A stretch of DNA of 29,443 bases from the IMG/VR virus record IMGVR_UViG_3300009506_000140, positions 1 through 29,443 of that record; one strand, given 5' to 3'. Shown here piece after piece: positions 8,283 through 21,307 of this stretch (its first letter is position 1; every line of letters begins with the position of its first letter). The notes below the pieces were generated by a model. The model saw nothing but the letters and a program-made list of their open reading frames with translations. It had not been told where the DNA came from and did no database searches. The stretch is from a virus. Both the position numbers and the translations under genes were made by a program.

Positions 8283-8696
8283 GTGCCAGATGAAAATCGG
8301 TGCCCACGGTGCGGCAGGGAATACGATCCGGCACATTTTATGGGATTTAGGGATGTGTGCCTGATCGCCCACGATGATGCGGGCGATCCGCTGAACGATT
8401 ACCAGCTGGCCGATCTGGGATATCTGTGCTATCAGTGCCAGATCGAACTGGCCGAAGCGGTGATGAAAACCGTCACGGCCAGAATCGATCATACCGCCAC
8501 GCCGGCGGATATACCGGTGGCCACCACCACAATCACTTCAATCGATGCGCCGGTGTGGGCCGAGAAGATGATTCGGCAATTGTGGTGGGAGCGGATCAAA
8601 CGCCGCCTGGCGTGGGCCGGCGCGATCCTGCTTCTGCTGGCCCTTTATGCCGCGATATATACCGGCGTGTATTTGCTGGTTCACTGGATATTCTGA
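8283..8696 (+). CDS. Zinc-ribbon protein with a C-terminal membrane anchor
   Basis: GTG 8283 follows GGAAGGTGATATAA. The 137-residue product has CPRCGREYD near residue 7 and CYQC near residue 49, forming a probable zinc ribbon. A Thr/Ala/Pro-rich linker follows, then one membrane helix near residues 110-134 (LAWAGAILLLLALYAAIYTG). The predicted topology is a cytoplasmic ribbon on a C-terminal tail anchor. I do not know the family; zinc ribbon plus tail anchor occurs in phage proteins that tether to membranes. Confidence 0.65.
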   Translation: MPDENRCPRCGREYDPAHFMGFRDVCLIAHDDAGDPLNDYQLADLGYLCYQCQIELAEAVMKTVTARIDHTATPADIPVATTTITSIDAPVWAEKMIRQLWWERIKRRLAWAGAILLLLALYAAIYTGVYLLVHWIF

Positions 8697-8708: not shown

Positions 8709-8897
8709 ATGGATGATGTAAAGGTTCTGCGCGAATTCATGAAATGTACGTTGTGCGGGAAGATCGTTTATTATTGCGAACGGAACGAAGTGATGATGGT
8801 GGAACCACAATCCCTTAATACCCTACTCGAAACGCAAACATATGAACGGCGATGGATCGAATGGTGGTGCGATGATTGTTACCAGGGCAAGGCATGA
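8709..8897 (+). CDS. Small zinc-binding protein
   Basis: A 62-residue protein; ATG 8709 follows GAAAGGATGGCACC. CTLC near residue 13 and CDDC near residue 54 give a two-knuckle zinc site, with an additional Cys in YYCERN. It is one of at least five small CxxC proteins in the early operon. No further assignment is possible. Confidence 0.65.
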   Translation: MDDVKVLREFMKCTLCGKIVYYCERNEVMMVEPQSLNTLLETQTYERRWIEWWCDDCYQGKA

Positions 8898-10387: not shown

Positions 10388-13006
10388 ATGGCGAACGGTT
10401 ATTATCGCATCGCGGCCAGTGGTGATGATTGCGAAGCAACGCCTTCAGGGTGGAATTACAATACCACCTATTTGCGCGAAGGCAACGTGGCCGGAACCAT
10501 CTATCGCACCTTCCTGCGGTTCGCATTAGATATTCCAGATGGCGCGGTGATCGATGATGCCCGCCTGGTGATGTGGCAGGATGGCACCTATTCGAATTCG
10601 GATGTAACCGGCACCATCATCAGCCTGCTGGATGAAGATGACTGTGCGGACTTCACCGCATCGAATCCCTATTCGCGTACAGTATGCAGTTCGCCGGCGG
10701 CGGTTGCATGGGCGGATATCTATGGCATCGATGATTCCTGGCGGCAATCTACGGATATCAAAACGCTGGTGCAGGGATTCATCGATCGCGCCGGCTATGG
10801 CACTGGGCAATATATGGGCCTGCGCCTTTCGGCGGATGGCGGATCATCGGGGCAATACTGGTGCAGTGTGCAGTGGGATTACGGCGCGAATCAGCGGCGT
10901 GCGATGCTGGTGGTGGCATATCATACCGTAGACGAAACCGGCAAGGCCGTGATCTTCCGCGAGGTGGCGGCATCCGGCGATGATACCTGGATGGATTCGA
11001 ACGATACCGCATCGCGTAGCACGGAAGTGCAGATCGAATTCGGGGCCAGTGACGAAAAAACGCCGATCATGGAACGCGCCTTTGCGCGGTGGTCACTGGC
11101 GGCCAGCGGGAACCAGGTGGAAGTGCCGGCAGGCACCACCATCGATAACGCGATCGCGGTGATGGTTTCGCTGCTGACGAACACGAACGCCTTCACCGCG
11201 AAGATCGGTGCCCTGGAAGATGAATCGGAATTCACGGCCACCGGCACCGGTATCTATAACCGCGCCATCATCAGCGGGGAAACCGACTGGGCACCGGCCA
11301 GCGGAGATGATCGCGGCATCCATCCCACTTCCGATTTCGCAGCCAGGGTTCAGGAACGCACCGATCAAACCGGCGCATCCGGATATGATCCCGATGGCAC
11401 CGGGGATCAGCCATACCTGGGCATCCGCATCAGCTATGGCACCGGCACATCGCGGAACTACCGCCGGCAATACGCTTCCCAGGATCACACGGCGCAGTTC
11501 GCGCCGCTGCTGATCCTGAGGTTCGATTACCCGAAGGTATATACCGAAGATTGCCTGGCGTATGATCGCGTGGGTATCGTTGCCACGGAAATCCACGAAA
11601 CCGGTGCGCAAATCTACTATGAGGATTGCGTGGTATATGATCGCGCCGGCGTAACCGCATCGGATGAAGCGGTTCTAACCGATGCGTGCCTGGTATACGA
11701 TCGTGAAGATACAACGGCCACCGATGCAGCCGTGCTAACCGATTCCTGCCTGGCATCGGAAAGGGTGGGAATCGCCGCCGCGGATGTGGCGGTTCTTTCT
11801 GACGCCTGCATAGCGGGCGATCGCCTGGCGGTGGCGGCCACAGATCAGGCGGTGCGCGTCGATTCACTCCTGCTATATGATCGCACCGGTATTGCCATCA
11901 CCGATGCGGCGGTGCGCACCGATGCCTGCCTGGCATATGATCGCGTGGGTATCACCGCCAGCGAAACCACTGTGGCGGAAATCGCGTGCCTTCTTTACGA
12001 TCGCGCAGCGGTTACCGCCAGCGATGCAGCAGTGCGCGTGGATTCGTGCCTGCTTTACGATCGGGCCGAAGTAACCGCCGAAGGCCTTCAGGTGGCCCAG
12101 GAAGCGTGCGTGGCCCAGGATAGGGTTTCTGTCTCGGCAAGCGATCTGGCCGTATTCTCGGATGTTTGTACGGCGTTCGAGCGCATCCAGATCACGGCGG
12201 ATGATGTTCTGGGCGAAACCTTCATCGAAGATTGTGTGCTATACGATCGATGCGGGATCACGGCCAGCGATGCCGGCGTGATGGTGGATGCCTGCCTGGC
12301 CGGCGATCGCATCCAGGTAACAGCTGCCGATCTGGCCGTGCGCATCGATGCCTGCCTGATCGGGGATCGGGTGGAAGTGGCCGCGGCTGATCTGGCCGTG
12401 CGCATCGATGCCTGCCTGGCCGGCGATCGCGTGGTGATAACCGCAAGCGATGTTTACGAACCAGGCACAGCGATATATATCGAAGATTGCCTGGCATACG
12501 ATCGCGCCGGCGTAACCGCCAGTGATGTGGCGATCTTTACCGATGCCTGCCTGCTGCGGGATCGGGTGGAAGTAAACGCTACCATCGGCGGAGTATGGGA
12601 AATCGCGTGCCTGGCATATGACCGCACCGGGATCGTGGCCACGCCTTCGCGGGTGATGTTCGATACCTGCCTGGCGCATGATCGCCTGGCGGTAACCGCC
12701 GCGAACCTGGAAGTGAACACCGATGCCTGTTTATTCTACATAAACACGCAGGTAACCGCGGCGAATTTCTCGATCCGGCTGGCCGATTGCCTGGCATACG
12801 ATCGCGTTTATATCCTGGCCCTGGGCCGGCTGAATCCCACCATCGATATCATCGGCGGCGCGGCGAAGGAAGGCGGCATCACCGGCGGGGCCGCGAAGGA
12901 AGGCGGCGTGGTGGGCGGGGCCGCGAAGGTGGGAACCATTACCGGCGGGGCCGCGAAGGAAGGCGATATCATCGGCGGCGCGGCGAAGGAAGGCGATCTG
13001 GGATGA
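10388..13006 (+). CDS. Giant Cys-repeat virion protein, probable adhesin or fibre
   Basis: An 872-residue protein. Two beta-sandwich-like domains occupy residues 1-180 and 181-383. Both carry an ASGDD motif, and a TFLRFALDIPDGAVIDDARL strand pattern resembles DNRLRE or carbohydrate-binding modules. Residues about 384-815 consist of some 21 tandem units of 20 residues with consensus DACLAYDRVGITASDAAVRT. The Cys is kept in all but one unit (DSLLLYDR). Longer connectors interrupt near units 1, 11 and 15. Residues 821-872 are five ten-residue units of the form IGGAAKEGG. No signal peptide is seen. Placement between a structural-type gene and the terminase suggests a virion fibre or adhesin. Start ATG 10388 follows GAAAGGAAGGCCGCC. 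Confidence 0.75.
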   Translation: MANGYYRIAASGDDCEATPSGWNYNTTYLREGNVAGTIYRTFLRFALDIPDGAVIDDARLVMWQDGTYSNSDVTGTIISLLDEDDCADFTASNPYSRTVCSSPAAVAWADIYGIDDSWRQSTDIKTLVQGFIDRAGYGTGQYMGLRLSADGGSSGQYWCSVQWDYGANQRRAMLVVAYHTVDETGKAVIFREVAASGDDTWMDSNDTASRSTEVQIEFGASDEKTPIMERAFARWSLAASGNQVEVPAGTTIDNAIAVMVSLLTNTNAFTAKIGALEDESEFTATGTGIYNRAIISGETDWAPASGDDRGIHPTSDFAARVQERTDQTGASGYDPDGTGDQPYLGIRISYGTGTSRNYRRQYASQDHTAQFAPLLILRFDYPKVYTEDCLAYDRVGIVATEIHETGAQIYYEDCVVYDRAGVTASDEAVLTDACLVYDREDTTATDAAVLTDSCLASERVGIAAADVAVLSDACIAGDRLAVAATDQAVRVDSLLLYDRTGIAITDAAVRTDACLAYDRVGITASETTVAEIACLLYDRAAVTASDAAVRVDSCLLYDRAEVTAEGLQVAQEACVAQDRVSVSASDLAVFSDVCTAFERIQITADDVLGETFIEDCVLYDRCGITASDAGVMVDACLAGDRIQVTAADLAVRIDACLIGDRVEVAAADLAVRIDACLAGDRVVITASDVYEPGTAIYIEDCLAYDRAGVTASDVAIFTDACLLRDRVEVNATIGGVWEIACLAYDRTGIVATPSRVMFDTCLAHDRLAVTAANLEVNTDACLFYINTQVTAANFSIRLADCLAYDRVYILALGRLNPTIDIIGGAAKEGGITGGAAKEGGVVGGAAKVGTITGGAAKEGDIIGGAAKEGDLG
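11541..12830 (+). repeat. 60-bp coding tandem repeats (about 21 units)
   Basis: DNA period is 60 bases, matching the 20-residue protein unit. Units near 12287-12430 are nearly identical: a stretch at 12329-12358 recurs exactly 60 bases later at 12389-12418, and CCTGGCCGGCGATCGC ending at 12310 recurs 120 bases later. Recent unit duplication or gene conversion is likely there, while other units have diverged. Confidence 0.85.
12842..13003 (+). repeat. 30-bp coding repeats (five GGAAKEG units)
   Basis: Five 30-base units encode IGGAAKEGG-like decapeptides. The first and fifth are almost the same at DNA level (GGCGGCGCGGCGAAGGAAGG), as are units two and four (GGCGGGGCCGCGAAGGAAGG). They form the C-terminus of the repeat protein. 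Confidence 0.85.
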
Positions 13007-13498: not shown

Positions 13499-13891
13499 AT
13501 GGGTGCCACGAAGTATAACAAGGCGATGGCCGATGCGATCTGTGATCTGGTGGGCCAGGGTGTGCCATATAAATACGCGGCCATGGCCGTGGGTATATGT
13601 GAGAAAACATTCTATAACTGGCGCGATAAGCATTTACAGTTCGATACTGCCTTAAAAAAGGCGGAAGGCGAATTTATCAAGGCCCACCTGAACAGCATAT
13701 CGGCCCATCGATACAAGGATTGGAAGGCATCGGCCTGGCTGCTGGAACGCCGGCATCCGGAAGAATTTGCACTGAACCGCCTTGCCGTGGAAGGCGATGT
13801 GCAGGTGAAGATCGTATTCGAAGATACGGTGAAGAAACCAGCGAAGAAGGTGCCGGCGAAGAAGGCGAAGGGCCGTGGATCAGGAACTTGA
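13499..13891 (+). CDS. terS: Terminase small subunit
   Basis: A 130-residue protein starting at ATG 13499 after GAAGGTGGTGCAGGG. The N-terminal HTH (KAMADAICDLVGQGVPYKYA, AMAVGICEKTFYNWRDKH) is typical of small terminases. It is followed by an oligomerisation helix (FDTALKKAEGEFIKAHLNSI), then WKASAWLLERRHPEEF, a motif seen in many small terminases. The C-terminus is Lys/Ala-rich (KKPAKKVPAKKAKGRG). It would recognise the packaging site on concatemeric DNA and recruit the large subunit, whose gene overlaps by 17 bases. Confidence 0.85.
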   Translation: MGATKYNKAMADAICDLVGQGVPYKYAAMAVGICEKTFYNWRDKHLQFDTALKKAEGEFIKAHLNSISAHRYKDWKASAWLLERRHPEEFALNRLAVEGDVQVKIVFEDTVKKPAKKVPAKKAKGRGSGT

Positions 13892-15107
13892 AATCAAGAT
13901 CACGTTCCTGCCGCACCAGAGTGCATGGCGCGATCTGATCCGGAAGGGATGCCGATACCCGGCCCTGGTGGGTGGGATCGGATCGGGGAAAACTTACTGT
14001 GTGGCCGAAGGCCTTCGGTTCGCCTGGGAGAATCCCGGCAGCCGCGGCATGATCGTTTCGCCATCCTATAAGATGATGCGGCGCATCATATATCCCACCC
14101 TGCAGGAAGATTTGCCGATCACGGCGGTGATGGTTAAGACCTGGAACCGCAGCGATGGAATCATAACGCTGCACAATGGCAGCACCATCTTCCTGGCATC
14201 GGCGGATAATCCGGAATCGCTGCGCGGGCCGAACCTGGCATGGGCCTTCGTGGATGAAGGCGCACTGATCGATGATGAAGCATGGAAGATCATCATCGGG
14301 CGCGTGCGCCAGCCAGGGTTCGATGGATGGTGCGGCCTGGCCACCACGCCGAAGGGCCGGAACTGGGTATGGAAACGATGGGTGGATGAACCCGAATCCG
14401 ATTACGGATATGTGCGGGCGAAAACGAAGGATAACACCCACCTGGCGGATTCATATCTGCGATCGCTGGAAAATTCGTATTCGGGCGAATTTGCCAGGCA
14501 GGAACTTGAAGGTGAATTCATCGTTCTGGAAGGCCTGATATATACCGAATTCGATCGGGAAATCCATGTTATCAGCGAACTGCCGGCGGCGGATAATGGT
14601 GAACTGATCTTCGTTCGCATGATCGCCGGTGTGGACTTCGGTTACACGAACCCTGCGGTGATCCTGGTGGTGGGCCGCGATGGCGATGGGCGATCGTATA
14701 TCGTGGACGAATTTTATGAACGCCAGCACACGATAACCGAGATCACCACGGAAGGCGCAGACCTGGCCACCGCCTGGCCGATCGAAACCTTCTGGTGCGA
14801 TCCATCCGAACCTGGTTACATCCGCGAAATGTGCGATGCTGGTTTGCCGGCACGCGGCGCGGATAACAAGGTGATGGAAGGCATTAACCGGGTGAAGGCG
14901 CGGCTGAAGGTAAAGACCGATGGCCGGCCTTCGCTTTATGTTCACCGATCATGCGTGAACACGATCGCCGAATTCGAATCCTATGTGTGGAAGAAGAAGG
15001 GTGATGAATTCACCGATCAACCGGAAAAGCAGGGCGATCATTCCATGGATGCCCTGCGGTATGAAGAAATGATGGCCGATCGGGAACCGGAAGTGATCCT
15101 GCTATAA
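13875..15107 (+). CDS. terL: Terminase large subunit
   Basis: A 410-residue packaging motor. Residues 33-40 are the Walker A loop GGIGSGKT. Residues 122-128 are the Walker B strand AWAFVDE, with Glu128 as the probable catalytic carboxylate. GLATTPKGRN near 154 is the coupling motif. The RNase H-like nuclease follows: GVDFG (Asp254), WCDP (Asp309) and DHSMDALRY (Asp389, Asp392). It translocates DNA into the prohead and cuts it. GTG 13875 overlaps the small subunit gene; no good SD is present, so translation is probably coupled. Confidence 0.95.
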   Translation: MDQELEIKITFLPHQSAWRDLIRKGCRYPALVGGIGSGKTYCVAEGLRFAWENPGSRGMIVSPSYKMMRRIIYPTLQEDLPITAVMVKTWNRSDGIITLHNGSTIFLASADNPESLRGPNLAWAFVDEGALIDDEAWKIIIGRVRQPGFDGWCGLATTPKGRNWVWKRWVDEPESDYGYVRAKTKDNTHLADSYLRSLENSYSGEFARQELEGEFIVLEGLIYTEFDREIHVISELPAADNGELIFVRMIAGVDFGYTNPAVILVVGRDGDGRSYIVDEFYERQHTITEITTEGADLATAWPIETFWCDPSEPGYIREMCDAGLPARGADNKVMEGINRVKARLKVKTDGRPSLYVHRSCVNTIAEFESYVWKKKGDEFTDQPEKQGDHSMDALRYEEMMADREPEVILL

Positions 15108-15124: not shown

Positions 15125-17152
15125 ATGGGCCTTCTCGATAAACTGCGCCTGGCCGGGCGGAAGAAGGAATCGCAAGCGGAACCGCTGATCTATCAGGAAT
15201 ACGAAGGCCAGTATGGCGTGATGGTTCCCGAGGATTACGAACACTATGCGAAAGGGTATGGCGCGATCACATGGATATACGCCTGCACCTATGCGATCAG
15301 CCATAACATCGCCGGCGTTCCGATCATAACCACGGATATGCAGGGCACGCCGCGGCAAGGATCGCGCCTGGCAAATCTGATCGCCAGGCCGAACCCATGG
15401 CAAACCGGAACCGATCTGATCCAGGGCACGCTAACATATCTGGAACTGGTGGGAAACGCATACTGGGAACTGGTGCGCGATGGCACCGGCAAGGTGGCGC
15501 AGATGTATTTGCTGCGGCCCGATCGCATGAAGATCGTTCCTGATCCGCACGAAAAGATCAAAGGTTATCTGTATGAATTGCGCGGGAAGAAGGTGGCGTT
15601 CGATCCGGAAGAAATCCTGCACATGAAGTATTTCAATCCCTGGGATGATTATTATGGCCAGGGCAGCTTAACCGCCGCCCTGCAGCCCACCATCCTGGAA
15701 ACGTATGCCATCACCTATAACAAGGCGCTGTTCCAGAATGGTGCGGTGCCTGGCGGCGTGCTGGAAGCGGAAGGGAAACCTGGCCCCGATACTATCGAAC
15801 GGCTGCGCAAGGAATTCGATAAGCGGCACAAAGGTGTAACAAAATCAGGCCGCACCGCGATCCTAACCGAAGGCCTGAAGTGGAAGGAGATTGCGCGATC
15901 CCTGGCCGATATGCAGTACAAGGAATTGCGCAAGATGAATCGGGAAGAAATTCTGGCATCCTTCGGCGTGCCGCCGGTGATGGTGGGCATCTTCGAATAT
16001 GCGAACTATGCGAACAGCATGGAACAGAAAAAGATGATGTGGGAAGAAACGCTGATTCCTAAGATCGGCCTGCTGGAAGATTCCATTAACATCCGCCTTG
16101 CCCCATATGTGGAACCGGCAGTGAAGATAAAGTTCGATCTATCCGATGTGCCGGCACTGCAAATGAACTGGGAACAGGAAGCGAACGTGGGTGAACGACT
16201 GACAAAGAACGGCCTAATGACCATAAACGAATGGCGCGAAAAGAACGGCCTTGAGCCGGTGCCCTGGGGCGATGTGTGGTGGAAATCGTTCTACCTGGTG
16301 CCGATATCATCCGGCCTGCTGGTGCCCGGCACCACGCCGGCGGGGATGTTATCGCTGGATCAGGCATCTGGAAATTTCTCGATCCCCGGCGGTGCGATAA
16401 TCCCGGCCCTGCCGCCTGCCGAGAAGGCGAAGGCCGAACCATCGCGGAACGATCTGAACCCGGTGGTGGATCGCCTGGCGCGGAAGCTGAAGCGGCTGTT
16501 CCAGGATCAGCAGATCGAAGTGCTGCGGGCCATCCGCGAAGGCAAGTGGCGGTGGCAGGATGGCATCCTGGTGAAATTGCCATCGCGGGCGAATCCGCCC
16601 TTCGATGCCGAGATGTGGGCGGAACGGTTCGCTGATGCCCTGGAACCGGAACTGGGCGCGGCCATGAAGATCGGTGCCGGGGCCGGCGCACACATGGCCG
16701 GGATCACCACGCCGGCGTTCGATATTCAATCGACCGAAGCGGCGAACGCGGTGCAGAACCTTTCACGCCTGTTCTGTGATGAAATCCAGCAGCATACCGT
16801 GGATGCGATCATGGATGCGGTGGAAGATTCGATCGTGGCCGGCGAAACCGTGGGCCAGCTCACAGATCGGATTAACGGAATATACGATTACGCGAAAACC
16901 GGCAGGGCCGAGATGGCGGCCCGCACCGAAACATCCCGCGCCTACACCGAAGGCCAGATATTCGAATGGCGTGAAGCGGGAATCGAGAAGAAGCAGTGGC
17001 ACGCGATCTTCGTGAATACCTGTGATGATTGCGCGGCGATGAACGGCAAGGTGATCGAACTTGAAGGCAAGTATGCCGGCCTGAAGGATGATGTGCTGAA
17101 CGGCCCGCCGCTGCACCCGAACTGTATGTGTGATCTTTACCCAGTGATCTAA
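15125..17152 (+). CDS. Portal protein fused to a MuF-type minor head domain
   Basis: A 675-residue protein. Residues 1 to about 400 match HK97-type portals: MGLLDKLRLAGRKKE, AITWIYACTYAISHNIAGVP, LIARPNPWQTG, GNAYWELVRDGTGKV, YLLRPDRMKI, FGVPPVMVGI and LTKNGLMTINEWREKNGLEP. After a Pro/Ala linker come helices and then a MuF (SPP1 gp7-like) module near residues 597-675: AARTETSRAYTEGQI, CDDC (Cys633, Cys636) and GPPLHPNCMC (His664, Cys667, Cys669). In most phages portal and MuF are separate genes; here one frame carries both. It would form the 12-mer DNA entry ring with internal MuF tails. ATG 15125 follows GGGAAAGGATAATCGCC. Confidence 0.9.
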   Translation: MGLLDKLRLAGRKKESQAEPLIYQEYEGQYGVMVPEDYEHYAKGYGAITWIYACTYAISHNIAGVPIITTDMQGTPRQGSRLANLIARPNPWQTGTDLIQGTLTYLELVGNAYWELVRDGTGKVAQMYLLRPDRMKIVPDPHEKIKGYLYELRGKKVAFDPEEILHMKYFNPWDDYYGQGSLTAALQPTILETYAITYNKALFQNGAVPGGVLEAEGKPGPDTIERLRKEFDKRHKGVTKSGRTAILTEGLKWKEIARSLADMQYKELRKMNREEILASFGVPPVMVGIFEYANYANSMEQKKMMWEETLIPKIGLLEDSINIRLAPYVEPAVKIKFDLSDVPALQMNWEQEANVGERLTKNGLMTINEWREKNGLEPVPWGDVWWKSFYLVPISSGLLVPGTTPAGMLSLDQASGNFSIPGGAIIPALPPAEKAKAEPSRNDLNPVVDRLARKLKRLFQDQQIEVLRAIREGKWRWQDGILVKLPSRANPPFDAEMWAERFADALEPELGAAMKIGAGAGAHMAGITTPAFDIQSTEAANAVQNLSRLFCDEIQQHTVDAIMDAVEDSIVAGETVGQLTDRINGIYDYAKTGRAEMAARTETSRAYTEGQIFEWREAGIEKKQWHAIFVNTCDDCAAMNGKVIELEGKYAGLKDDVLNGPPLHPNCMCDLYPVI

Positions 17153-17167
17153 AGGATGGTGATGATC

Positions 17168-18262
17168 GTGAAGAAAAAGAATCGGCCAGGCGCGGGAACG
17201 GCGAACACCGATATCCCGATGGAAGGATTCAGCGGCCCGGTGCCGATCCGTCCATATGCTAAAGAGTTCCACGCGATGATAAAGCAGGCGGATGAAGATA
17301 CCCGCACGATCCAGGGATGGGCCAGCACCAGCGGCATCGATAAGGTGGGCGATATCGTTCATCCGGAAGGCCTGCTGAACGTGGATGAATACATGAAGAA
17401 TCCGGTGCTGACCTATATGCACAACTGGCGCGAACCGGTTGGTCATGTGATGGCCCTGGAAATCCGCGATGATGGCGTATGGGTTACCGCCTATATTGAC
17501 AGCACCGAAGAAAAGCTATGGCGGAAGATAAAGGAAGGAACCCTGCGGGCCTTCAGCATCGGTTACGATGTGATGCAGGAAGATTTCACCGAAGGTATCA
17601 ATCACCTGAAGCAGTGGGAACTTCTCGAAATCGCCATCGTTTCGATCCCCGCGAACACCGAATGCCTTTTCGATCTGGCGAAGTCACTGGCCACCGGCAC
17701 CGATCTGGTGATCCGCCAGGCGGCGCGGAAGGGCGCGATACCCTTCAAGCATTTCCCGCTGGATGATCTGGATGCGGCCTGGGATGGGCCGGCGGAACGC
17801 AAGGCTGCGGAAGTGGATGATCTGAAGCTGATGGCGGCCTGGTTCGATTCCGATGCGCCGGATGCGAAGGCATCCTATAAGCTGCACCACCACCGTGCGG
17901 CATCGCCACATAAAACCGTATGGGCCGGCGTGAAGGCAGCCGGCACTGCCCTGATGGGTGGGCGCGGTGGCGTGGATATACCAGCCGGCGATGTGGCCGC
18001 GGTGAAGGCCCACCTGGCGAAGCATTATGCCGAGTTCGAAAAGGAACCGCCCTGGGAGAAGGCCGCCGCCGATGAAGATTATTTCGGATATCCCGATCAG
18101 GCGGCCCTGGCCGAATGGATCACCGCCGAACTGGCGTACTATAAAGAGTTATCCGCACGCACCTTATATCTACTCAAGGGAATGGGATGTTCAAGCGTTG
18201 AAGATATCCCGCGGATAGTGCGTGATCTTCGCGGATTCACGATGAAGCACCTGAACCACTGA
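17168..18262 (+). CDS. HK97-type prohead protease with C-terminal extension
   Basis: Residues about 35-165 are the HK97/U35 protease domain: RTIQGWASTSGIDKVGDIV, NPVLTYMHNWREPVGHV (His85), LRAFSIGYDV (Ser130) and LLEIAIVSIPAN (Glu154). These are candidate catalytic residues by comparison with the family. A C-terminal region includes KLHHHRAASPHK and GGRGGVDIPAGDVAAVKAHL, a block often attached to these proteases, and may act as scaffold. GTG 17168 is chosen from AAAGGATGGTGATGATC; ATG 17156 and 17162 lie on the SD. It would trim the capsid N-terminus during maturation. Confidence 0.9.
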   Translation: MKKKNRPGAGTANTDIPMEGFSGPVPIRPYAKEFHAMIKQADEDTRTIQGWASTSGIDKVGDIVHPEGLLNVDEYMKNPVLTYMHNWREPVGHVMALEIRDDGVWVTAYIDSTEEKLWRKIKEGTLRAFSIGYDVMQEDFTEGINHLKQWELLEIAIVSIPANTECLFDLAKSLATGTDLVIRQAARKGAIPFKHFPLDDLDAAWDGPAERKAAEVDDLKLMAAWFDSDAPDAKASYKLHHHRAASPHKTVWAGVKAAGTALMGGRGGVDIPAGDVAAVKAHLAKHYAEFEKEPPWEKAAADEDYFGYPDQAALAEWITAELAYYKELSARTLYLLKGMGCSSVEDIPRIVRDLRGFTMKHLNH

Positions 18263-18334
18263 AACGCTGCCGGCCATACCATGATCGAATCCGCTGTGTA
18301 ATTTCAACCGAACGAAAAAGGAAGGTGAAGGAAG

Positions 18335-19759
18335 ATGAAGTTCTGTCCGACTTGCGGCGCGGCCCTGGCCGATGCAAAGGCCGAGGCTTGCCCTGAATGC
18401 GGCGCGGCCCTGCCGAAGCTGGCCCCGCCTGCCGATCCGCCGGCGGCCCCGCCTGCCGATCCGAATCTTCAGGTGAAGGAAGGCGCATCGATATACGATC
18501 TGATCGCAAACCTGAAGGCATCCCAGGATCAGGTGGTGGCCCGCCTGGGCGTGATCGATGGCCAGCAGAAGGAGATGGAAAAGCGCATCGGGGATTCGAT
18601 CCTTGAGCGCATCCGCACCGAAATCGCCCTGCCGCGCAAGGGTGAATTTGAGGGTGGCAGCGAACGAAACAAGATCATGGATATCGAAGGGCCACACGGC
18701 CTGAAGGGGTTCGATCTGTATCTTCTGGATCAGATCAGCCGCGGCATGGGATGGCAGCAATCCAGTGAGCTGCAGACGGCCATAAAGGCCATGACTTCCA
18801 CCGGGGCCGGCGTGGGTGATGAATGGGTGCCCACCCTGATGGCCGGCGCATTCGAACACGAATGGATCGCGCAAACGCTGGTGGCGCAGCAGTTCGGGAA
18901 CATCGTGATGCCATCGAATCCGTATGATGTGCCGGTGAACCTGGCCGATCCTACGGTTTACAAGGTGGCCGAAGGCGGTGCGCACACTAAGACCGATGCG
19001 ACCAGCGGGAAGCTCACACTAACCGCGGTGAAAATCGCGGCGGTGACGAACTTCAGTTCAGAGCTGGAAGAAGATTCGGTGGCCCCGCTGATCCCCGAAA
19101 TCCGCGCATCCCTGGCCAGGGCGATGGCCGCCGCGATGGATTACATCATCGTGAATGGTGATACCACCGACACAACCGATAATGACAACATCTCATACTA
19201 TGGCGGGGATATCACCGACACCCACCGCGCCCTGGTGGCCGATGGCCTGCGCCACGCGGCCCTGATCGACAACACCGATATGAAATCCGATCTGGGCGCA
19301 CTGTCCGCCGCCGACTTCGGAACCCTGATGGGCAAACTGGGCAAGTATGCCACGCGCCCTTCCAGCTGCGCATTCTTCATGGATGTGTGGACGCTGATAA
19401 AGTCACTGTTCCTGAGCGAAGTTCAGACGGTGGACAAGTATGGGATGTATGCCACAGTCTTAGTGGGCGAGCTGGCCCGCATCTATGGCATCCCGATCGT
19501 GGTTACCGAGGAACTTCCGAAAACCACCAGCGCCGGCCTGATCCACTACGCCGGAACCGGCTGCACCCTGGGTTCGATCGTTCTGACCCACCTGCCATCG
19601 TGGCGCACCGGCACCCGGCGTGCGGTGGAATTCGAGCTGGATCGCACGGCATCCACGGATACCACCGATCTGTATATCCGGCAGCGTGTTGCCTTCAACT
19701 GCTACGGCACGAAGGCAACAAACACGAATTCCGCATACGGTTACAACGTCACGATCTGA
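18335..19759 (+). CDS. Major capsid protein with an N-terminal zinc ribbon
   Basis: A 474-residue HK97-fold capsid protein. The main body (WVPTLMAGAFEHEWIAQTLV, NIVMPSNPYDVPV, KLTLTAVKIAAVTNFSSELE, AAAMDYIIVNGD, FFMDVWTLIKSL, GIPIVVTEELP, FELDRTASTDTTDLYIRQRV) fits the family. A coiled-coil delta-like domain spans about 51-98. Unusually, the first 25 residues form a zinc ribbon with Cys4, Cys7, Cys19 and Cys22 (FCPTCG, ACPECG), joined by a Pro/Ala linker. The protease at 17168 presumably removes the N-terminal part. ATG 18335 follows AAAAAGGAAGGTGAAGGAAG, and no later start would keep the delta domain. A hairpin follows the gene. Confidence 0.9.
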   Translation: MKFCPTCGAALADAKAEACPECGAALPKLAPPADPPAAPPADPNLQVKEGASIYDLIANLKASQDQVVARLGVIDGQQKEMEKRIGDSILERIRTEIALPRKGEFEGGSERNKIMDIEGPHGLKGFDLYLLDQISRGMGWQQSSELQTAIKAMTSTGAGVGDEWVPTLMAGAFEHEWIAQTLVAQQFGNIVMPSNPYDVPVNLADPTVYKVAEGGAHTKTDATSGKLTLTAVKIAAVTNFSSELEEDSVAPLIPEIRASLARAMAAAMDYIIVNGDTTDTTDNDNISYYGGDITDTHRALVADGLRHAALIDNTDMKSDLGALSAADFGTLMGKLGKYATRPSSCAFFMDVWTLIKSLFLSEVQTVDKYGMYATVLVGELARIYGIPIVVTEELPKTTSAGLIHYAGTGCTLGSIVLTHLPSWRTGTRRAVEFELDRTASTDTTDLYIRQRVAFNCYGTKATNTNSAYGYNVTI

Positions 19760-20239: not shown

Positions 20240-21307
20240 ATGCGCGTGTTCTACATGGATTCAAAGGAATCCGTTTCCGGTTACTACCGCATGATCCTGC
20301 CGGGCATGGGCCTGCGCATGAATCGCCTGGCCGAAGTGGCGTTCAACTATGAATTGATCCGCAAATATGGCGATGATCTAAAAGGCCTGGGCCTGGCCGG
20401 CCTTGAGGAACTATCAAAGGCGAACATAATTCACCTGCAGCAAACGATGATTACAAAAGGCCTATGGTTATTCGAAGCCGCGAAATCCCATGGAATCAAG
20501 ATCATCATCGATACCGATGATAAGGCGGATTGCGGAACGCCAGGCGATAAGAAGGTGCCGCTGCGCCTGGATAACTGGCAGGCGCGGAAGATCGTGTGGA
20601 AGGTGGCCGATGCCTTCACCTGCACATCCCAGGGGATGCGCGAATGGCTGCGGGCCGAATTCGGCAGGCCTGTTTATGTGCTGCCGAATATGCTGGATTG
20701 TGGATCGCCACGGTGGCAGGCCCGCATGAAGAAGCCGCCACATAAAAAGGTAGTGGGATGGAGCGGCGGCGATACCCATTATAGTGATCTGGAAATCCTG
20801 CGGGATGTGCTGCCGGCGATCGCGGCCAGGCCAGATGTGAAGGTTCTGGTGCAGGGGATGAACCCAGGATTCTGGGATGATAACAATCGCATCCATGTGG
20901 AAGATTTTATCGTGGACTTCATAAAGGATTATCCGCGGGCCATCAGCCGGTTCGATATCGGATTGTGCCCGGTGATGGATCACGAATTCAACACGCAAGG
21001 GAAAAGCGATCTGAAATTCCTTGACTATACGATGATCGGTGCGGCCACGATCGCATCGAACCGCCGGCCCTATACCGATTCGATGATCCACGGAAAGAAC
21101 GGCCTGCTGGTGGGCGATGATCCACAGGAATGGATCGATGCGATAAACCGCCTTCTGGATCAGCCAGGACTTAGGCGAAAACTGGCATGGAACGCGGATT
21201 TCTACCTGAAGAAGCATAGGGATATCCGCCGCACCGCGAAGATGTGGCGGGATTGTTACCGCGCCGTGATGGCCCAAGGGCCGGCCCCGATCCTGGTGAA
21301 AGGATAG
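20240..21307 (+). CDS. GT-B glycosyltransferase in the head gene cluster
   Basis: A 355-residue GT-B type enzyme. The N-terminal Rossmann half begins MRVFYMDSKESVSGYYR and includes IIIDTDDKAD. The C-terminal half has KKVVGWSGGDTHYSDLEILR (typical start of the nucleotide-sugar domain), RFDIGLCPV, KSDLKFLDYTMIGAATIAS (the lysine- and acid-bearing donor-binding block) and NGLLVGDDPQEWIDAI. Family 1/4-like glycosyltransferases use nucleotide sugars; target and sugar are unknown. Location between capsid and connector genes suggests modification of virion proteins, but host surface or DNA remain possible. ATG 20240 follows GGAAGGTGGTGCATGG. Confidence 0.85.
   Translation: MRVFYMDSKESVSGYYRMILPGMGLRMNRLAEVAFNYELIRKYGDDLKGLGLAGLEELSKANIIHLQQTMITKGLWLFEAAKSHGIKIIIDTDDKADCGTPGDKKVPLRLDNWQARKIVWKVADAFTCTSQGMREWLRAEFGRPVYVLPNMLDCGSPRWQARMKKPPHKKVVGWSGGDTHYSDLEILRDVLPAIAARPDVKVLVQGMNPGFWDDNNRIHVEDFIVDFIKDYPRAISRFDIGLCPVMDHEFNTQGKSDLKFLDYTMIGAATIASNRRPYTDSMIHGKNGLLVGDDPQEWIDAINRLLDQPGLRRKLAWNADFYLKKHRDIRRTAKMWRDCYRAVMAQGPAPILVKG

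Follow-up and report, generated by a model that had tools for sequence, protein, structure and literature searches.

A zinc-ribbon-like domain at the N-terminus of an HK97-type major capsid protein: a candidate docking tip for prohead assembly

Introduction

Why should a major capsid protein (MCP) begin with a zinc ribbon? The question is raised by a 29.4-kb virus record of an uncultured phage (the whole stretch is referred to as the window), in which an ORF of 474 aa at 18335..19759 (+) encodes an MCP whose translation begins MKFCPTCGAALADAKAEACPECGAALPKLAPPADPPAAPPADPNLQ. A sequence-only reading had recognised a Cys4 ribbon fused to the scaffold end of this protein. It considered a ribbon at this place unusual and proposed control of scaffold assembly, binding of DNA or partners, or delivery as a cleaved peptide as possible roles. 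In HK97, residues 2-66 of the MCP assemble into trimeric coiled-coil towers within the shell that touch the portal wing (PMC10275583). The T5 capsid protein pb8 carries an N-terminal scaffold domain that is cleaved by the protease pb11 (PMC5292684). Here we ask whether the ribbon truly belongs to the MCP, where else it occurs and what it may do.

Results

The MCP gene and its start site

A summary of the locus is given in Table 1. Terminase, portal, protease and MCP follow each other in the usual order of a head module, all on the plus strand.

Table 1. Features of the head module in the window and domains of the MCP.
Feature	Coordinates	Strand	Evidence
Terminase large subunit	13875..15107	+	PF03237 E 2.2e-17, phrog_2
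Portal protein fused to MuF head-morphogenesis domain	15125..17152	+	PF04860 E 5.9e-78, PF04233 E 3.1e-14
Separate S78-type prohead protease, without ribbon	17156..18262	+	Peptidase_S78 E 4.7e-13, phrog_80, no CxxC pair
MCP ribosome-binding site, AAGGAAGGT, spacing 8	18318..18326	+	duplex -8.1 kcal/mol
Zinc-ribbon-like domain, MCP residues 1-30 (Cys4, Cys7, Cys19, Cys22)	18335..18424	+	Zn_ribbon_3, shuffles, local pLDDT 76-79
Pro/Ala-rich linker, MCP residues 31-52	18425..18490	+	sequence; low pLDDT at residues 32-51
Scaffold (delta-like) domain, residues ~53-147, predicted helix 64-96	18491..18775	+	predicted helix; T5 MCP alignment offset
HK97-fold shell domain, residues ~148-474	18776..19756	+	PF05065, TIGR01554, phmmer, Foldseek, VIA

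A strong start downstream of the ribbon had been named as the finding that would speak against the fusion. Among the in-frame MCP starts tested, the ATG at 18335 has the strongest well-spaced ribosome-binding site. ATG81 reaches -7.6 kcal/mol with a spacing of 0 (AAGGAG abutting the start), GTG73 -7.2 kcal/mol with a spacing of 12, and ATG115 shows almost no ribosome-binding match. The reading frame from ribbon to MCP is unbroken by any stop. As far as sequence can show, the start at 18335 is real.

Two further genes of the window deserve mention. A glycosyltransferase (20240-21307; phrog_7162, E 8e-33) lies shortly after the MCP within the head-tail module, an odd location that hints at a role in modifying part of the virion or of the host. 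The ORF at 10388-13006 encodes a protein of 872 aa with many CLAYDRVGITASD-type repeats (TRF unit of 60 bases), nearly each of them with a Cys, and a GGAAKEG repeat tail with a 30-base unit; the product is likely a tail fibre or an adhesin-like repeat protein. An ORF of short VRASVRASVGDSVRASIW-type repeats (L158:11982-13043) belongs to another phage, whose terminase is related.

A zinc-ribbon-like domain at the N-terminus

The N-terminal stretch of the MCP (MKFCPTCGAALADAKAEACPECGAALPKLAPPADPPAAPPADP) contains CPTCG-x10-CPECG, two CPxCG-type knuckles at ribbon spacing with all four Cys intact. The cysteines read earlier from FCPTCG...ACPECG are thus confirmed in the 474-aa ORF. The MCP has 7 Cys in total (positions 4, 7, 19, 22, 345, 410 and 456), and the N-terminal pattern C..C-x5-18-C..C was obtained in 0 of 200,000 shuffles of the MCP residues. 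The Pfam ribbon models (PF13248 and PF13240) cover the first 24-27 residues. Zn_ribbon_3 matches residues 2-24 with E 1.6e-4 and 21.5 bits (curated cut-off 27), Zn_Ribbon_1 the N-terminus with E 3.3e-4 and 20.8 bits (curated cut-off 25). Because these scores lie below the curated Pfam cut-offs, we term the domain zinc-ribbon-like. Its net charge is 0. It is a candidate zinc site and probably metal-dependent.

Bacterial ribbons of PF13248 and PF13240 show the same CPxCG-x10-CPxCG arrangement, often with an MKFCPxCG start as in the window MCP. In contrast, those found precede membrane or other proteins, while the ribbon of the window precedes a capsid protein and scores below the Pfam cut-offs. 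The window encodes more small CxxC proteins at 859-1302 (CSRCG...CPGC), 2108-2293, 8283-8696 and 8709-8897. Two of them (859-1302 and 8283-8696) were scanned against Pfam, with no ribbon family above cut-off.

Capsid fold, scaffold helix and predicted cleavage

The MCP scores above cut-off with Phage_capsid PF05065 (E 6.3e-14, 52.5 bits, cut-off 24.2) and with TIGR01554 of NCBIfam (HK97 MCP; 50.8 bits, cut-off 27.5). A T5-type MCP is matched by phmmer with E 1e-8, the similarity being limited to the shell domain. The AlphaFold2 model, based on an alignment of 25 MCPs (24 of them relatives), has a mean pLDDT of 56. Its best Foldseek match is 8ho3 (E 1.5e-12), and fold comparison by VIA gave Z 14.4 and rmsd 5.2 with 248 residues aligned. 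In this model residues 1-30 fold locally (pLDDT 76-79) and are followed by a floppy linker of low pLDDT (residues 32-51). Helix 64-96, in a protein with an S78 protease gene upstream, is predicted at a pLDDT of only ~55-70. A helix is also seen in the AlphaFold2 model of the single MCP sequence, which was rejected for its pLDDT of 38.

In the T5 alignment, residue 212 of the window MCP corresponds to residue 224 of the T5-type protein. The chain in PDB 5tjt comprises 299 residues, the mature C-terminal part of a precursor of 458 residues. Based on this offset and the mature length, a scaffold cut near window residue 148 is predicted. Scaffold and ribbon are hence expected to be cleaved off near this residue, which is an offset rather than a demonstrated site. 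By analogy with HK97 and T5, the ribbon would be the luminal tip of the scaffold domain, with one copy on each capsid subunit, and would disappear when the head matures.

The nearest solved sequence relatives, T5 pb8 and the closely similar DT57C capsid protein (5tjt, 8zvi, 8ho3), share with the window MCP the HK97 fold and a separate protease gene; they have an N-terminal scaffold of ~150 residues fused to the MCP, as predicted for the window protein. In contrast, the precursor of the T5-like Vibrio phage VCPH has no Cys4 ribbon. HK97 gp5 (3qpr, 8fqk) resembles the window MCP by the upstream protease and the same shell fold, and its fused coiled-coil scaffold corresponds to the one predicted here, but the protein starts with its tower residues and has no extra folded tip (PMC10275583). 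The earlier reading is upheld in that a Cys4 ribbon is fused to an HK97-type capsid protein and stands before a predicted scaffold helix.

How rare is the ribbon

We inspected 75 prophage MCP loci of two host groups; a draw of 199 genomes supplied 60 of them and a second draw of 247 genomes the other 15. None of the 75 carries a ribbon in the MCP or in a neighbouring long ORF. The sole regex match among the prophage loci (L358) is a 151-aa frame that was judged non-coding. Likewise, no CPxCG ribbon is present in ORFs >100 aa of 78 terminase-relative viral loci. Both counts agree with the earlier view that a ribbon at this place is unusual.

Searches of viral, genome and phage collections with the MCP yielded no close relatives; all matches were ribbon proteins of bacteria, apart from a single T5-like capsid. 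A portal-based search of viral_contigs gave no match. When the 31-aa ribbon was used as query against annotated phages, helicases, nucleases and small proteins were obtained, with no capsid gene among the annotated matches listed. Halorubrum virus Humcor1 was rejected as a ribbon capsid, since its CxxC motif is found in a membrane protein distinct from the MCP. In the open-licence literature we found no description of a ribbon on a capsid, scaffold or head protease of tailed phages. Many known capsid families with the same ribbon, which would have spoken against the earlier reading, did not turn up in these comparisons; equivalent ribbons do occur in several unrelated uncultured phages.

Ribbons in head genes of other phages

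Pattern scans of IMG/VR looked for an ATG with a CPxCG ribbon after it, and head genes recur among the matches listed. L107, and through it L139, encode fusions of S78 protease, ribbon and MCP. Both have an internal start with Shine-Dalgarno (SD) sequence after the ribbon, which would confine the ribbon to the product that contains the protease. Close relatives of L107 in IMG/VR lack the ribbon and its presence is sporadic. L328 encodes ribbon, ClpP protease, a second ribbon, scaffold and a PF25209 capsid in one gene. Here AAAGGAG-N6-ATG immediately precedes the second ribbon, and a short product from this start would consist of ribbon, scaffold and MCP, the same layout as in the window.

Further ribbons are found at the C-terminus of ClpP proteases with the MCP next (L025, L095), between a DUF2213 protease and a scaffold segment (L315), in front of DUF2213 (L053) and in weak S78-like proteases (L280, L282). 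L084 has a T4-type scaffold with a C-terminal ribbon adjoining gp23, and L035, L083 and L088 have ribbons in Mu-type portal tails. The Pfam ribbon cut-off is passed by L328 and L282, with most parallels below it. Net charges range from -5 to +5 and are 0 or below in most, the ribbons of L282 and L315 being basic (+3 to +5). Judged by their families, these ribbon proteins would be expected to face the prohead lumen. The ribbon inside a 551-aa ORF of L121 was not counted as a head case, as PHROGs matched its ribbon only.

The ribbon is missing at the corresponding place from the cultured relatives of L328 and of L315. Together with the ribbon-free relatives of L107, this indicates a module that comes and goes and is dispensable in general. 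Lambdoid fusions (mEp460, Pmp14, CF67a, yong2) share with L328 the order protease, linker, scaffold, MCP, and some have internal starts near the junction. However, the cultured ones are devoid of a CxxC pair whereas L328 has the ribbon, and the protease of the window is a separate gene.

In-frame SD-ATG sites (AAAGGAG, AAGGAG, GAGGAG) at the junction of protease and scaffold were seen in L107, L124, L125, L130, L133, L139, L328, L053 and L315. Two products per gene hence look widespread in genes that combine protease, scaffold and capsid. Lambda C/Nu3 is a case of two products from one gene. Apart from this, the S78-like head protein of L282 (L282:2-3085, 1028 aa) contains three separate zinc-type motifs around an acidic low-complexity region, one of them of DnaJ type (CSTCHGSG...CPDC), and the T4-type portal L084:5460-7418 has an intein-like domain (Intein_splicing PF14890, E 6e-9).

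To compare head genes with others, head protease and MCP ORFs were recognised with ribbon-free seeds among 589 non-redundant ORFs of at least 250 aa in viral loci selected by the ribbon pattern. Among the matches listed, a ribbon is present in 5 of the 12 protease/capsid ORFs versus 25 of the 577 other ORFs (P 1.5e-4 at E<1e-3 and 9e-5 at E<1e-5, with small counts). As the loci were picked for a ribbon beside an ATG, the test tells which genes carry the ribbon, not how frequent it is.

Discussion

The position of the ribbon is well supported; its function we infer. Of the roles proposed at the outset, control of scaffold assembly fits best, as the ribbon lies in a predicted cleaved luminal domain and similar ribbons recur in protease, scaffold and capsid genes of other phages. 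We favour, with a probability of about 0.5, a docking role: at the end of the MCP scaffold domain the ribbon would form a folded but transient tip that serves prohead assembly. Following HK97 and T5, the scaffold helices would point into the prohead, in bundles beneath the capsomers and around the portal, so that the lumen would contain one ribbon for each copy of the MCP. There the ribbon may act by protein-protein contacts, either bundling the helices or docking the protease, the portal or a partner. The protease would then remove ribbon and scaffold together, leaving a mature shell without ribbon.

The main rival is less probable: a short ribbon of the kind that often begins bacterial proteins may sit as a tolerated passenger in a disordered, disposable linker with no role of its own. 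Near-identical MKFCPTCG modules indeed start unrelated bacterial proteins, cultured relatives of L328 have at this place a linker without ribbon, often rich in Pro/Ala, and the ribbon is sporadic among the relatives of L107. However, the domain keeps all four Cys and both CPxCG knuckles and folds locally in the model, and in the loci picked for ribbons, unrelated families of head proteins carry one more often than other long ORFs do, with protease, scaffold and capsid proteins among the carriers. Some zinc ribbons bind nucleic acid, hence the domain might contact DNA or RNA in the prohead, or its cleaved piece might do so later. The basic ribbons of L282 and L315 would suit such a role, but the charges (0 for the ribbon of the window MCP, at most 0 in the majority of parallels) do not favour it, and scaffold and ribbon are expected to be gone before packaging. 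We thus regard nucleic-acid binding as unlikely, and DNA binding is downgraded as a general role.

It is quite improbable that the ribbon stays outside the capsid protein in vivo, i.e. that translation starts downstream (e.g. at ATG81) and the ribbon is rare or a separate short product. AAGGAG abuts ATG81, and internal starts near the junction are common in protease-capsid fusions, in L107 and L139 even after the ribbon. Against this, the lack of spacing at ATG81 contrasts with the well-placed site at 18335, the predicted scaffold helix begins before residue 81 and no stop separates ribbon and MCP. Least of all do we expect the cleaved ribbon to leave the head or to enter the host and act there. 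The predicted removal of the ribbon is the one point in favour of such an effector, but neither a signal nor a partner was found and the parallels offer nothing that suggests delivery.

Taken singly, both parts are of familiar kinds, a regular MCP of HK97/T5 type and a ribbon of standard fold type, here below the Pfam cut-off. Their combination and its recurrence across protease folds seem new, as we found no report of them in the open-licence literature. The recurrence in protease, scaffold and capsid genes of unrelated phages points to a little-noticed add-on part for head building. Tentatively, zinc ribbons might serve repeatedly as docking modules in the lumen of tailed-phage proheads. S78, ClpP-type and DUF2213 proteases, T4-type scaffolds, portal tails and, here, the scaffold domain on every capsid subunit would each have acquired them independently, and they would help to hold scaffold, protease and portal together until they are excised.

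How scaffolds recruit portal and protease is still poorly understood. If the docking tip holds true, a metal-dependent ribbon at every scaffold tip would provide a handle on this process: zinc or the cysteines could be removed to see which assembly step fails.
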